A stretch of DNA of 22,189 nt from a virus (IMGVR_UViG_3300030333_006447:1-22189); one strand, 5' to 3'; positions 4,809 to 17,059 are shown, counted from the stretch's first letter. Made by a program: numbers and translations. Notes: generated by a model from the letters alone, not told the origin.

Positions 4809-6071
4809 ATGGCTAATTTTAATTTAACAGATGCTTCTGCCTTATTTAAGATTAAATATGAGAAGCTTTCTGAAAACGTGTATAACTCTGCTAATGTTTT
4901 ATTAGGTAGAGTTAAAAAATCTTACAATTTTACAGGTAAACAATTATCAATTGCAGTACCTCAATCTTTTAGTGGTGGTGTTGGTTCTGGATCTCTTCCT
5001 ACAGCTAATGCAGCAACTTATTCTGATGCTCAAATTACAGCTAAAAAAATGTATGCTGTAGTTGAAATTGATAGAGAATCAATCAAAGCTGCTATGAGTG
5101 ACGAAGGTGCTTTTGTTAGAGCTACTAAAGAAGTTGTTAAAAAAGGTGTTGAATCTTTTATGAGAAACCTTTCTCGTTCACTTTTTAATGATGGTTCTGG
5201 AAAGTTAGGTACTTCTGAAGCAGTAGCTTCTTCTGATCCAAAAGCTGCTCTACTAGCTGCTGATTCTGATGGACATATTGTTGTGCCTATCGCTAGTATG
5301 AAAGAATCTAATTTTGAAGAAAGAGATCTTGTAGATGTTATTGTAGATGCTTCTGCTTCTACTGGAGCTGGTACTACAATATCTGGAGTAGAAGTTATTG
5401 CTGTAGATCCTGATAATAGTACTGTTACTCTATCTAAAGATAAAGTAGTTTTAGGTAATTTTGAAGATGGTTCTGGTAATTTACAGTCTGCTGATATTTA
5501 CATGCAAAATTCTAAAGACAAAGATCCTCAAGGACTTAAAGGTATTTGTGATGCTACGTCAGGAACTGCATACAATATTTCTGTAAAAAGAAGATGGAAA
5601 TCTAAGCAAAAAGATGCTGGAGCAAGTGCTATTTCAACTGATCTTTTAAATGAAATGATGTTAGGTGTTGAAAAACAATGTGGTAAATCTCCAAATCTTA
5701 TTATTTGTTCATATAAACAATATGAAAAGATTCTAAATTTACTTGAAGACCAAAAAAGATATGAAGTTAAAACTAGATCTGGACTTAAGTCTAAATCTGG
5801 TGCTGACATTAGTTTTTCTGGTATTGAGTTTATGTCTTCTTCTGGTCCAGTAGGGATTTTTCCTGAAAGATTTGTTGAAGATGATAGAATTTATTTTCTA
5901 AATGATAATCACATTCACATTTATCACAGACCAGACTTTGGTTGGTTTGACGATGATGGAACGGTTTTCTTAAGAAAATCAAATTCTGATGCTTATGAAG
6001 CAAGATATGGTGGATACCTAGAGTGTTACATTAATCCTTGTTTTCATGGTGTGTTAACTAATTTAGCATAA
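4809..6071 (+). CDS. Major capsid protein
   Basis: The 420-residue protein that tiles the icosahedral head; an HK97 fold is expected from family knowledge but not directly readable. Evidence: it follows the scaffold, has the usual length, and starts MANFNLTDASALFKIKY with a long helix, then a beta-rich glycine stretch (SFSGGVGSGSLPTANAAT, about 53-70) where capsid proteins carry a flexible loop, then a long amphipathic helix (ESIKAAMSDEGAFVRATKEVVKKG) resembling a spine helix. The C-terminal part includes RKSNSDAYEARYGGYLECYI, like the final strands of podoviral coats. The ribosome site AAAAGGAG is the strongest in the region. Codons are strikingly uniform (TCT for Ser, GCT for Ala, GGT for Gly), fitting very high expression. 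A terminator follows directly. Confidence 0.88.
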   Translation: MANFNLTDASALFKIKYEKLSENVYNSANVLLGRVKKSYNFTGKQLSIAVPQSFSGGVGSGSLPTANAATYSDAQITAKKMYAVVEIDRESIKAAMSDEGAFVRATKEVVKKGVESFMRNLSRSLFNDGSGKLGTSEAVASSDPKAALLAADSDGHIVVPIASMKESNFEERDLVDVIVDASASTGAGTTISGVEVIAVDPDNSTVTLSKDKVVLGNFEDGSGNLQSADIYMQNSKDKDPQGLKGICDATSGTAYNISVKRRWKSKQKDAGASAISTDLLNEMMLGVEKQCGKSPNLIICSYKQYEKILNLLEDQKRYEVKTRSGLKSKSGADISFSGIEFMSSSGPVGIFPERFVEDDRIYFLNDNHIHIYHRPDFGWFDDDGTVFLRKSNSDAYEARYGGYLECYINPCFHGVLTNLA

Positions 6072-6080
6072 TCTAAAAAA

Positions 6081-6103
6081 GCTAGGTTCTCTCCCTGCCT
6101 AGC
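6081..6103 (+). other. Upstream hairpin of a tandem pair after the capsid gene
   Basis: GCTAGG (6081-6086) and CCTAGC (6098-6103) are exact inverted repeats with an 11-nt pyrimidine-rich loop. The hairpin starts 9 bases after the capsid stop codon and ends right where the terminator stem begins. It may protect the capsid mRNA 3' end or affect the next hairpin. Its loop segment TCTCCCT (6090-6096) is complementary to AGGGAGA (6130-6136) beyond the terminator. Confidence 0.6.
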
Positions 6104-6129
6104 ACCCCTGGAGAAATCTGGGGGTTTTT
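6104..6129 (+). terminator. Rho-independent terminator closing the head-gene block
   Basis: ACCCCTGGA (6104-6112) pairs with TCTGGGGGT (6117-6125): nine pairs including two adjacent G-T wobbles, capped by the tetraloop GAAA (6113-6116) and followed by TTTTT (6125-6129). Four consecutive C-G pairs near the base and the T run meet the usual requirements of an intrinsic terminator. It lies 33 bases after the capsid stop. No good promoter is visible before the next gene, so some transcripts probably read through and the downstream genes may be expressed at a lower level than the capsid. Confidence 0.9.
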
Positions 6130-6156
6130 AGGGAGAATATTAAAGGAATAAAAAGT

Positions 6157-8832
6157 ATGTCATCAGGTTTTAAAAAACAGTTGTTACAATCACAAGCATA
6201 CAGTGGAACTACCAAAAAAGGTGATGTTGTAGTTCTTCCTCCTGATTCGGAAGACGTAATATTAGTAACAAAATGCTCGGGTAAAGATAGTGGAGTCGTT
6301 AAAGCAACTTTAGAACATTCTCCAGATGAAAACGATGCAAACTTTTCAAGCGTACAATCAGAAAAAATTTCGCATACTGCTGGAGGAAGCGGATGGGGAA
6401 ATTTAAAATATATAGACACAACTGCAGTCGGTACAGGGACTGCACCAAATATAGCTGATCCAAAAAATAAAACAGGTAAAGTAAATAATTTATCGGGTCA
6501 ATCTCATGATATTTTTCATAATACAATGACTAAAGATGATCCGTGGACAATTTCTACGTGGATTAAAAGTAACGTACAACCAACTTCCACAGATTACTCA
6601 CCTGTCCTATTTTCAACAGGTAGTTCAGTTAACATACCAGAACACCCTGGAAATAGCAAAGCTACCAAAAGAGATAATGTTGCTGCAAATTATATGTATT
6701 TTTCTTGGGGTCAAGCAAGCACAGATTTAGATAGTGGTTCAGGGCATTACTTCAAAGACAGTATTTTATGGCAAAGAACTATGTCTTTTTTTAACTGGAC
6801 GATCAGTTTTTGGTTTAAAATAGACGAAACTTTGACTGATGATGCATTTTACAATTTATTTGGTGGGAGCGGTTTGTATTCTACTCAGAAGGGAATCAAA
6901 ATAAAAGACACTAGTGCAGGTGGATATCAAATTAAAATATATAATCATACAACTTACGATTTAGATTCTTCAATCAACTTAGAAGATGGCGGCTGGCACC
7001 ACATAGCACTTTGTAATGACAACACAAGTATGAGTCAAACGCATTCAGGTTCTACATCCGCTGGATTTCAGTACACCAACAAATCTGGAAATCCAAGAGT
7101 TAACATAAGACTTTTCGTGGACGGTATAGAAGCAACTTACAACTCTTCAACTTATACCCACGGTTGGATTCGTTTTAATGGTGATTATAGTACAACGATT
7201 TCAGGACCACAAAATTTATTTTCTGGTTTTCGCTTTAATTCAGTAAATGGTTACACAGCAACAGAGACGGCAAGTAACTATGGTTTTCATTTTGGGAAAA
7301 TTTCTTCAAATGATGCCGATAATAATTTAGCATGTTCTATTGACGAATTTTCTTTACATAAAGTTAACATCGGTTTAGACAGCTCAGGATCTGCGACCAC
7401 AACAGCTACAATATCGGAACTTTATAATAGTGGTGTACCTACAGACTTTAGTACTACAAGTTGGACTTCAGGAAGTTGGGCAACTTCAGACCTACTTATG
7501 CATATAAGAATGGGGGATCAACCAATTTCAGGAGATTCTGACGGAGTAAAATATACTTCTCAAGTAAGTTGTAAACAAATGTTGTACACTGATGATGCTA
7601 ATGGTTATCAAGAACATGCGACAAACACTCTTACTGGAGTTTTAAAACATGCAAATGGAAGTTCTGCTAACAATTCAGTAGATTTAACTTCTTCAGATTC
7701 AATTTATGATGCTCCAATACCAACTTATGACGTTTTTGGGAATGGAATGCGAATGTCATTTACCAAAAAATTAAAAACCGACGCAACTTGGGATACAGCA
7801 GGAGAGCAAACAAGTAGATTTTTATTAAGTTTTGACGGATTTGAAGATACAGCAGATTACTTTTTAGGATATAATACAACATTTACTAGACCATTACATC
7901 CCAAAACAGGGGTTGAGAATGCAAGTGCTGATCTTTTAGACGGAGAATGGCACAATATAATTGTTTCATACAGAGGCGGTGCCCCAGGTACTGCAGTAAA
8001 TCCTCATGACTACATAGCAGTATGTTTTGATGGGAAACAAATGACTACTACAGATTGTGTAGAAAAAACTTCTACAGTAACTTTTGTAAACGACCATTTT
8101 AGATATACAGATGTAACTGAAGATTTAAGGGGAACTTTCTTTCTTTCTGCAGGAGATCCATTTACAGCAGCAGGAACTAATTCAAAATACGCATTTCAAG
8201 GTGGTTTTGATGAAACTTCTTTGCATAACGATAGTTGGCAATTAGGGTCTGCTTCGTCAACAGGATGGGCTTCTGGTGGATTTAATACAATGAAACCAAA
8301 TACAATTTATGGAATAGATAATACAAGAAATGGAGCAAATGATGCAGGTTCTCCATATGATTTAAAAAATCCATCGTCAATAGGGCATCCTGGTCCTACT
8401 GGAAACTCTTATATAGAGCCGTCTGCTTCTGCAGTAGGTGGAGGTTTACAGGTTTACTATAGATGGGGAGATACTCCTGGAGATTGTTCTACATCAATAC
8501 ATGACGTTCAATCAGCACTTGATAATGTAACAGATAGAGATTTAGCTGTACTTTACGGTTCAATTACTGCTGGAGACGCAACAGATGAAAATAGTGCAGC
8601 ATGGGATACTGCTGTAGATACGGTGGCAGAAGGTGGTATAGAAGTAGCTGCTGGGACAACAGAAGGTACATCAGGATTTGCATTAGAAAATGTACAAATT
8701 ACTTGCGCAGATGGTTTACAATTTTTTAGAGTAAATGCGCCAAAATTAGCAAATTTAAGAATAAAGTGGACAGGCGCGGGAACTGCAACTTCAGTCGAAG
8801 CATCAATTCACTATAGAAGGAGAAAGAAGTAA
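6157..8832 (+). CDS. LamG/concanavalin-like lectin adhesin built into a small beta module
   Basis: A likely virion surface protein that binds sugars, 891 residues. Two LamG-like jelly rolls can be read. The first runs from NWTISFWFKID (213-223) through GGWHHIAL (278-285) and IDEFSLH (395-401) to HIRMGD (449-454). The second runs through DGEWHNIIVSY (595-605) and FDETSLH (684-690) to YYRWGD (767-772). A degenerate third start, WTISTWIKSN, is at about 130. The ends match the two next genes: VVVLPP (24-29), LEHSPD (52-57) and the last residues ASIHYRRRKK. These parts are intact in the 85-aa gene, so the lectin part looks inserted. The ribosome site is AAAGGA at 6142-6147. The stop overlaps the next ATG by one base. 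It could be a tail fibre, or a head fibre given its place after the capsid. The LamG call is by motif recognition. Confidence 0.8.
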   Translation: MSSGFKKQLLQSQAYSGTTKKGDVVVLPPDSEDVILVTKCSGKDSGVVKATLEHSPDENDANFSSVQSEKISHTAGGSGWGNLKYIDTTAVGTGTAPNIADPKNKTGKVNNLSGQSHDIFHNTMTKDDPWTISTWIKSNVQPTSTDYSPVLFSTGSSVNIPEHPGNSKATKRDNVAANYMYFSWGQASTDLDSGSGHYFKDSILWQRTMSFFNWTISFWFKIDETLTDDAFYNLFGGSGLYSTQKGIKIKDTSAGGYQIKIYNHTTYDLDSSINLEDGGWHHIALCNDNTSMSQTHSGSTSAGFQYTNKSGNPRVNIRLFVDGIEATYNSSTYTHGWIRFNGDYSTTISGPQNLFSGFRFNSVNGYTATETASNYGFHFGKISSNDADNNLACSIDEFSLHKVNIGLDSSGSATTTATISELYNSGVPTDFSTTSWTSGSWATSDLLMHIRMGDQPISGDSDGVKYTSQVSCKQMLYTDDANGYQEHATNTLTGVLKHANGSSANNSVDLTSSDSIYDAPIPTYDVFGNGMRMSFTKKLKTDATWDTAGEQTSRFLLSFDGFEDTADYFLGYNTTFTRPLHPKTGVENASADLLDGEWHNIIVSYRGGAPGTAVNPHDYIAVCFDGKQMTTTDCVEKTSTVTFVNDHFRYTDVTEDLRGTFFLSAGDPFTAAGTNSKYAFQGGFDETSLHNDSWQLGSASSTGWASGGFNTMKPNTIYGIDNTRNGANDAGSPYDLKNPSSIGHPGPTGNSYIEPSASAVGGGLQVYYRWGDTPGDCSTSIHDVQSALDNVTDRDLAVLYGSITAGDATDENSAAWDTAVDTVAEGGIEVAAGTTEGTSGFALENVQITCADGLQFFRVNAPKLANLRIKWTGAGTATSVEASIHYRRRKK
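6316..6328 (+). repeat. Short exact DNA repeat encoding HSPD (copy in LamG gene)
   Basis: CATTCTCCAGATG occurs here and again at 9310-9322 in the 85-aa gene, in the same reading frame (His-Ser-Pro-Asp). A near copy, CATTCTCCAAATG, is at 9006-9018 in the 121-aa gene. These mark the shared module of the three genes. Confidence 0.75.
8804..8817 (+). repeat. Short exact DNA repeat encoding the IHYR terminus (copy in LamG gene)
   Basis: CAATTCACTATAGA lies at the end of the 891-aa gene and again at 9437-9450 at the end of the 85-aa gene, in the same frame and at the same distance (12 bases) from the stop codon. With the HSPD repeat it brackets the lectin part, which suggests an insertion into a duplicated module. 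Confidence 0.75.
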
Positions 8833-9197
8833 TGGCTTCAGGATTTCATTTAACGGCTTTTGACAATGTGGTTGCAGGAGGAACAGGAGTTTATGTAGAT
8901 AGTTGGGAAGGTGGGTATTTAAAAACTCCTCTACCAGTTGATGCAAATGATTATATAATTACAGTTATTTGCCCTACTGGATGTACTGCTACAGTAGAAC
9001 TTTGGCATTCTCCAAATGGAGTAGATTGGGCACAAGCTACAGATAGTAATGGAGATGCAATCTCTTTTGAATGTCCAGGAGGAGAATGTACTTGTAAGGT
9101 ATTAACAGTTTCTCTTTTACAATATGTTAAAATAAAATTAGGTAATGCGGCAAGTCCAGCAGCATGTACTGTAAAAATACATTATACAACTTTTTAA
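8832..9197 (+). CDS. Small Cys-containing virion protein of the HSPDG module family
   Basis: Function unknown; 121 residues, mostly predicted beta strand. MASGF at the start resembles MSSGF of the preceding protein. VELWHSPNGVDW (55-66) corresponds to LEHSPD and VEHSPDGVTF in its neighbours, and YVKIKL (98-103) plus TVKIHY (113-118) match the last strands of the 85-aa protein (PKIKII, ATIHYR). Six cysteines are present (47, 51, 81, 86, 88, 112), in CPTGC and CPGGECTC clusters; the 85-aa relative has none. They might bind a metal or form disulfides. The ATG overlaps the upstream stop by one base, so translation is probably coupled. Likely a head-decoration, tail or fibre-associated protein judging from neighbours. 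Confidence 0.78.
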   Translation: MASGFHLTAFDNVVAGGTGVYVDSWEGGYLKTPLPVDANDYIITVICPTGCTATVELWHSPNGVDWAQATDSNGDAISFECPGGECTCKVLTVSLLQYVKIKLGNAASPAACTVKIHYTTF

Positions 9198-9207
9198 GGA
9201 GTAATAT

Positions 9208-9465
9208 ATGATAGCAAGTCAAAGTAAAGTATTAGAGCAAAATGAGATTTTTGAATTACCTCCTTATGCTGATTCAATTTTGTTAGTAGGTACTGGAGTT
9301 ACTGTAGAGCATTCTCCAGATGGAGTTACTTTTTATGGAGCAAATACTTCTGGGATAACAGGCTCATCTACTTTGTTTAAAATAAGCGATGCTGTTATTT
9401 TTCCTAAAATAAAAATAATATCTAGTGGAGGAGCTACAATTCACTATAGAGTGAGTAAGAGGTAG
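9208..9465 (+). CDS. Minimal HSPDG-module virion protein
   Basis: An 85-residue, all-beta-looking protein of unknown function and the shortest complete example of the module seen here. IFELPPYADSILLV (14-27) aligns with VVVLPPDSEDVILV in the LamG protein; VEHSPDGVTF (33-42) and GATIHYRVSKR (75-85) align with that protein's two ends. It has no signal peptide or membrane segment. GGAG at 9198-9201 serves as ribosome site, and the tail-fibre gene starts two bases after its stop. The alternation of hydrophobic strands suggests a small beta sandwich that could cap or decorate a virion surface or join fibre to particle. Sure that it is a gene and a relative of its neighbours; not sure what it does. 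Confidence 0.8.
   Translation: MIASQSKVLEQNEIFELPPYADSILLVGTGVTVEHSPDGVTFYGANTSGITGSSTLFKISDAVIFPKIKIISSGGATIHYRVSKR
9310..9322 (+). repeat. HSPD DNA repeat (copy in the 85-aa gene)
   Basis: CATTCTCCAGATG, identical to 6316-6328 in the LamG gene and in the same frame. Confidence 0.75.
9437..9450 (+). repeat. IHYR DNA repeat (copy in the 85-aa gene)
   Basis: CAATTCACTATAGA, identical to 8804-8817 at the end of the LamG gene and in the same frame. Confidence 0.75.
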
Positions 9466-16717: not shown

Positions 16718-17059
16718 ATGAAAAAACCATTGTATGCTGATTACATTTTAGAAAGAGAAAATAGTCATTATTATGAAACAGACTATGGCTTTGTAACATA
16801 TAAAGAAGAAGATAATCATATTTATTTAGTAGATATGTATATTAAACCAGGGTATAGAAAAAAAGGTAATGGAAGGCAATTTGTAAAATATATGGAAAAT
16901 ATAACTAAAGAATGGGGTAAAAATTTATTAATAACTTCTGCATCTTTAGAAGCAAAAGGAGCTGAAACTAGTGTAAAAGCTATTTTAGCGTGTGGATTTA
17001 AGTTTTATAGTATGAATGAAAATGATTCTATGCTTTATTTCTCTAAAGGAGTTTTATAA
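16718..17059 (+). CDS. Minimal GNAT-fold protein (T7 gp13-like position)
   Basis: A 113-residue acetyltransferase-fold protein. VDMYIKPGYRKKGNGRQFVK (38-57) is GNAT motif A: the strand, then the acetyl-CoA pyrophosphate loop R47-K-K-G50-N-G52, then a helix. The late strands ACGFKFYSMN (91-100) and MLYFSK (105-110) are as in motif B. The N-terminal two helices of a full GNAT are reduced, giving a short version. In T7, gene 13 of the internal-core block also has a GNAT-like shape and likewise precedes gp14, gp15 and gp16; the same order holds here. Whether it acetylates anything is unknown, but the acetyl-CoA loop is intact. The ATG follows the previous stop by one base. Confidence 0.8.
   Translation: MKKPLYADYILERENSHYYETDYGFVTYKEEDNHIYLVDMYIKPGYRKKGNGRQFVKYMENITKEWGKNLLITSASLEAKGAETSVKAILACGFKFYSMNENDSMLYFSKGVL

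Follow-up and report, generated by a model that had tools for sequence, protein, structure and literature searches.

Capsid cement proteins of phages are usually seen as small glue, and adhesins on the head as Ig-type additions. Bbp16, the cement protein of Bordetella phage BPP-1, is a jellyroll protein of 140 aa that occurs in one copy and without an insert, and its gene lies directly after the capsid gene, 55 bases downstream of Bbp17. Virions contain Bbp16 in abundance and no infectious particles form once it is deleted, and in the BPP-1 jellyroll the F strand lies in the external sheet (PMC3863775). The gp10 protein of Agrobacterium phage Milano is a capsid-cementing dimer (PMC10491603), encoded by the first gene after the capsid gene, and gp002 of phage 7-7-1 has been described as a capsid-decorating dimer; neither has a lectin insert. 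Accessory domains are held off the capsid in T4 Hoc, which consists of several Ig-type domains, and in Milano LP1, which has an Ig-type domain on an N-terminal arm, and both are presumed to bind weakly to cell surfaces (PMC10491603). A similar beta-sandwich is found in XepA and YomS of Bacillus subtilis prophages, which are pentameric and have been reported as lytic-cassette proteins, XepA also as cytotoxic (PMC6834076). Among open-licence papers we found none that describes a cement or decoration protein with an inserted lectin.

Here we describe a locus of an uncultured virus with three genes, A, B and C, that share a module resembling Bbp16 in its predicted jellyroll fold, in sequence and in its place directly after the capsid gene. 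The gene for A is, as that for Milano gp10, the first after the capsid gene. Unlike Bbp16, the module is present in three paralogues and A has about 770 inserted residues. A would work like Hoc and LP1, but its lectin interrupts the anchor itself.

The locus and its relatives

The window, that is the whole stretch of DNA analysed, is a virus record of 22,189 bases with the gene order terminase, portal, putative scaffold, capsid protein, A, B, C, a 719-aa protein, tail fibre and more structural genes; the names of genes without a database match come from this order and from general knowledge of podovirus genomes. The three genes, their motifs and their coordinates were all found to be as described in an earlier note on this DNA:

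4809..6071, + strand: major capsid protein gene, upstream neighbour of A (Pfam SU10_MCP, E 3.7e-8; phrog_14242 major head protein, E 1.5e-28)
6157..8832, + strand: gene A, 891 aa, cement-like jellyroll (predicted) interrupted by a LamG lectin insert
8832..9197, + strand: gene B, 121 aa, uninterrupted module (AF2 model; resembles phage cement proteins in structure and sequence)
9208..9465, + strand: gene C, 85 aa, uninterrupted short module (hhalign to B 71.2; clade of C genes in 13 viruses)

The capsid gene ends 86 bases before the start of A, with B and then C following downstream. The capsid protein profile gave no match to the capsid protein of BPP-1 or to any other solved capsid protein. 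Inside the structural block, a 113-aa ORF (16718-17059) resembles a GNAT acetyltransferase, as judged by eye from an RKKGNG motif.

Relatives were collected via the capsid protein, and 80 contigs that encode a related one were obtained. Neither A nor B by itself gave anything usable in IMG/VR scans, and the B-family alignment was too divergent as a query. A was not found in GTDB genomes, and tblastn against cultured phages gave no relative of A, B or the S form (defined below), except for weak matches of contig L045 that were later informative. In Arthrobacter phage Brad, which has a distantly related capsid protein, no module was present in the two genes checked after the capsid gene.

With duplicates removed, 38 records, including the window, have after the capsid gene a gene that is long, or truncated by the contig end, and that starts with the half-module of A. 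B and C follow A in nearly all sufficiently long contigs, L004 being without C at this place. In 20 more distant contigs a single uninterrupted module of 110-121 aa without lectin, here called the S form, lies shortly after the capsid gene, so that one genomic slot occurs both with and without the insert. Most relatives (such as L012, L019 and L028) also encode, between the capsid gene and A, a conserved protein of 82-130 aa that ends in IGSDITEQY or similar and is absent in the window, L002, L003 and L004. A fourth copy of the module was seen upstream of A in L006 (4440-4742), L036 (8647-8949), L037 (8881-9204) and L051 (5203-5610).

A module split between the two ends of A

It was confirmed that A starts and ends with the two halves of one domain of about 100 residues, about 770 residues apart, and that B and C carry this domain whole. 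The parts of A are as follows:

6157..6372, + strand: N-terminal half-module, about residues 1-72 (strands 5-16, 31-40, 48-55 and 67-72; hhalign to B and C)
6373..8673, + strand: lectin insert, about residues 73-839 (Laminin_G_3 at 213-293; weak Laminin_G_2 at 590-608)
8674..8829, + strand: C-terminal half-module, about residues 840-891 (strands 840-845, 852-859, 866-872 and 876-888)

Profile-profile comparison with hhalign gave scores of 99.8 and 59.4 for the N-terminal half of A against B and C, 55.3 and 34.1 for the C-terminal half against B and C, and 71.2 for B against C. The best of 100 column shuffles per pair reached 13.6-20.2, and one unrelated family scored 27.4 against the N-terminal half, so that only the score of the C-terminal half against C is close to noise. 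At the level of protein profiles, the sharing of the module between the ends of A, B and C, which had been noticed earlier, is thus far beyond chance.

An HMM built from nothing but 15 B proteins found complete modules in B and S proteins. On A it matched in eight viruses as two non-overlapping pieces in the correct order, with profile positions of about 30-84 in the N-terminal and 93-135 in the C-terminal piece and the break at one place (about 84 | about 93-97). In these homologues, too, the ends of A match the module. The N-terminal half was detected in all 11 complete A proteins with 21-43 bits (best of about 1300 shuffles 11.0 bits; internal segments at most 5.9), with an iE of 8e-5 in the window, and the C-terminal half outscored the best shuffle (10.3 bits) in 9 of 13, with 13.6-22 bits. 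The C-terminal half of the window itself reached only 3.4 bits, at the correct profile positions 90-135, so that the case for it depends on the profile of the family and on the fold model. An independent profile of the C family also matched A in two halves.

The earlier note had in addition pointed to exact DNA runs common to A and C, and these are located exactly at 6316/9310 and 8804/9437. As a sign of recent duplication they were rejected, because with random synonymous codons for the same proteins at least one shared 13-mer was obtained in 22% of the trials; the duplication being ancient, the runs are no trace of it.

The insertion point in A lies past the short strand after the SPDG turn and before the strands with the LLQYVRIK-type motif. 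In the predicted fold this would be the E-F or the F-G connection of a B-to-I jellyroll, depending on the naming of short strands. As the F strand of BPP-1 is external, an insert at this place in A would plausibly face out. Two relatives, L037 (from 9217) and L038 (from 5534), have a second insert of about 330 residues in A, located in the first half-module before the SPDG strand.

Fold models and homology to cement proteins

The AF2 model of B is a beta-sandwich (pLDDT 75.8, pTM 0.68). Its best matches among solved structures are XepA (Z 11.3), YomS (Z 10.1), the Milano chain 8fwg_l1 (Z 9.5) and the 7-7-1 capsid chain 9hz8_0 (Z 9.3), the latter two being gp10 (137 aa) and gp002 (135 aa) by length and position; the baseplate cup protein of Klebsiella phage KP1 also matched with a Z of 9.3. 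In the AlphaFold2 model of A the ends, residues 1-72 and 840-891, are well predicted, with mean pLDDT values of 67-82 for the N-terminal half, and the rest is poor apart from short stretches (mean pLDDT 39 for the full length). This model aligned with YomS over 105 residues (Z 10.1, model range 1-888), with the BPP-1 cement protein 3j4u_H over 104 residues (Z 9.0, range 1-886) and with the 136-residue Milano chain over 117 residues (Z 8.9, range 1-890). All three aligned lengths exceed the number of residues in either end alone, which means that both ends align jointly. In the predicted model the two ends of A thus form one jellyroll of the capsid-cement type. The earlier note had made its reading depend on a superposition of the joined ends with C; an indirect check through B did not refute it, as the models of B and of the joined ends match the same solved structures. 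Structural matches of the insert to ConA-like folds come from the low-confidence part of the model.

At the sequence level, a search with the module profile against 177,635 PDB sequences ranked Bbp16 first (E 0.001). The next match, a 149-residue domain of an alpha-N-acetylglucosaminidase family protein, followed closely (E 0.0014), so that the PDB match taken alone is only suggestive. Among 417 ORFs of six cultured phages, Bbp16 was found by two module profiles with E-values of 2.4e-6 and 2.3e-7. The only ORFs to score were Persinger gp7, Bbp16 and a Murka 'minor capsid protein', with E-values from 4.5e-8 to 6.5e-6 against 0.6 for the next ORF, the genes of which all lie shortly downstream of the capsid gene; the phages were partly picked for earlier matches, and the point is the specificity within each genome. 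Profiles of B only and C only gave E-values of 0.25 and 0.38 for Bbp16 among these ORFs, and the Pfam Bbp16 profile reached only 0.02, in 2 of 28 module members. DUF6385 (PF19912) scored 13.2 bits with B, below the Pfam cut-off of 26.8, and its best E-value among the 28 members was 1.6e-4. Milano gp10 is similar in fold (Z 8.9-9.5 for the Milano and 7-7-1 decoration proteins) but has no sequence match to the B profile.

S forms such as that of L045 (11595-11951) match phrog_9522 'major tail protein' with an E-value of 6e-7. The match covers only the C-terminal part, profile positions of about 126-238 of 241, and a whole-length match was not found. From this likeness the domain may decorate tail tubes elsewhere. 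Since this tail family and the lytic-cassette proteins XepA and YomS (Z 10-11) match as well, the fold leaves the location of the module unfixed.

Paralogy and apparent exchange of the insert

In a tree based on 121 columns, A formed one clade (support 83/58) and the S forms another (88/87), B formed a clade with one extra short form (99/98) and C a group with one extra form (84/88). The separate clades of A, B and C imply duplications older than the split of these viruses, and by this reading of the sequences the three are old paralogues. The insertion in A probably happened once, which is the simplest reading at a modest clade support. The proposal that a module was duplicated and that one copy received a lectin is supported by the two-piece HMM matches, the joint jellyroll model and the single clade of A next to those of B, C and the lectin-free short forms.

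The earlier note had placed LamG-like domains throughout the stretch between the two halves. A Laminin_G_3 match was indeed obtained at residues 213-293 (E 8e-8; 33.0 bits, cut-off 27.6), and the only other LamG-like region to score in the window was the weak Laminin_G_2 at 590-608. Of 31 A proteins, many of them incomplete, 18 have a Laminin_G_2 and 13 a Laminin_G_3 match.

Beyond what could be seen from the window itself, comparison of the relatives indicates that the insert is an exchangeable cassette. The A gene of L002 is 88.7% identical to that of the window over nt 1-401 and 98.5% identical to that of L019 over nt 429-951. The junction in L002 could be a chimeric assembly; the same pattern is shown by L012/L019, L027/L032, L005/L028 and L023/L043. 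The first three of these pairs are 91-97% identical over the first 460-520 nt of A and then diverge, and L023 and L043 have lectin DNA in common at different positions. The conserved 5' part of A extends into the start of the insert. As judged from these alignments, A is a mosaic gene in which the LamG insert is exchanged between viruses and the anchor half is kept.

In two contigs the C-terminal half-module was found as a separate gene:

L020, 15695-15877: C-terminal half gene, 60 aa, own start codon, right after the gene of the 1458-aa LamG protein
L014, 13264-13449: C-terminal half gene, 61 aa, own start codon, after an intervening 97-aa ORF

Frameshift or readthrough is unlikely for both, as an in-frame stop lies 0-1 codons before the ATG and, in L014, the 97-aa ORF lies between. 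L021 is no independent case, being identical to L020 over 8.4 kb. In the tree, the joined forms of L014 and L020 nest within the A clade and are not sisters, so that splitting seems to be secondary and possibly repeated.

Proposed function and alternatives

We consider it likely that A, B and C are cement or decoration paralogues related to Bbp16 and that A holds exchangeable LamG lectins outward from the capsid. The three would be ancient paralogues of a phage capsid cement/decoration jellyroll, with the LamG array of A placed in a single loop about midway through the fold; the chain ends would rebuild the anchor and the lectins would form a lobe on it. We infer that A, and probably also B and C, bind the outer capsid face, from which the lectins held out by A could attach weakly and reversibly to the glycans of host cells or of particles. 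With the anchor separate from the lobe, viruses could exchange the lectin insert by recombination and keep the anchor. The putative decoration of the head, suggested earlier from gene position, gains from the likeness in sequence and predicted fold to proven cement proteins that are encoded at the same genomic place.

The module could instead fix the three proteins to the tail or neck, with A as an adsorption appendage. The phrog_9522 match of the S forms, the KP1 baseplate cup protein among the structural matches and a tail fibre gene about 2 kb downstream are in favour of this, but no long-tail genes were recognised in the 22,189-base window, A comes first after the capsid gene, in relatives the module likewise lies behind this gene, and the three best matches in cultured phages are proven or annotated capsid proteins or are encoded shortly after the capsid gene. 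We regard tail or neck anchoring as unlikely. Even less probable, in our judgement, is that the ends form a jellyroll and A is released or only transiently bound, in a lysis or cell-surface role similar to XepA and with the lectin not on the virion: XepA and YomS are the best structural matches of B and come from lytic cassettes, XepA being cytotoxic (PMC6834076), but the gene lies next to the capsid gene and the sequence homology is to Bbp16, an essential cement protein of BPP-1. That the ends are unrelated and alike only through short motifs shared by chance, A being simply a LamG protein, would agree with the low score of the window's C-terminal half with the B profile; the profile scores far above the shuffles, the two-piece matches in eight viruses and the single cement-type jellyroll that both ends form in the model make this highly improbable.

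Under the preferred reading of capsid decoration, the glue domain itself is broken up by a LamG array that viruses swap with one another. If this is true, uncultured podovirus-like viruses would have a fast-evolving adsorption surface on the capsid and not only on the tail. Proteins of this kind could be sought by their domain order, which provides a testable rule, and the versions made of two genes would be natural split proteins. Tentatively, with somewhat less than even chances, we further propose that the cement protein is a docking frame for exchangeable lectin cassettes which in some lineages consists of two polypeptides, each with half of the jellyroll, one bearing the lectins and the other, from the separate 60-aa gene, completing the fold on the capsid. 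Such a frame would represent a natural split-protein display system.

A conserved RNA element before A

Between the capsid gene and A the following element was found:

6081..6135, + strand: conserved RNA element (variable hairpin with a CTCCCT loop, terminator-like hairpin with a T run, then AGGGAG)

It is present at 45 loci (the window and 44 related ones) in 31 distinct versions and has no match in Rfam. Stem 1 has 7-9 bp and 16 different left arms, each matching its own partner (0.67 with shuffled partners). Because the longest helix was taken as the stem, complete pairing is in part built in, and it is the joint change of both arms that counts as evidence. The CTCCCT loop and the AGGGAG tail are invariant and able to pair, which would make a possible pseudoknot around the terminator, although this pairing never varies. 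The element may determine how abundant capsid transcripts are relative to those of the decoration proteins.
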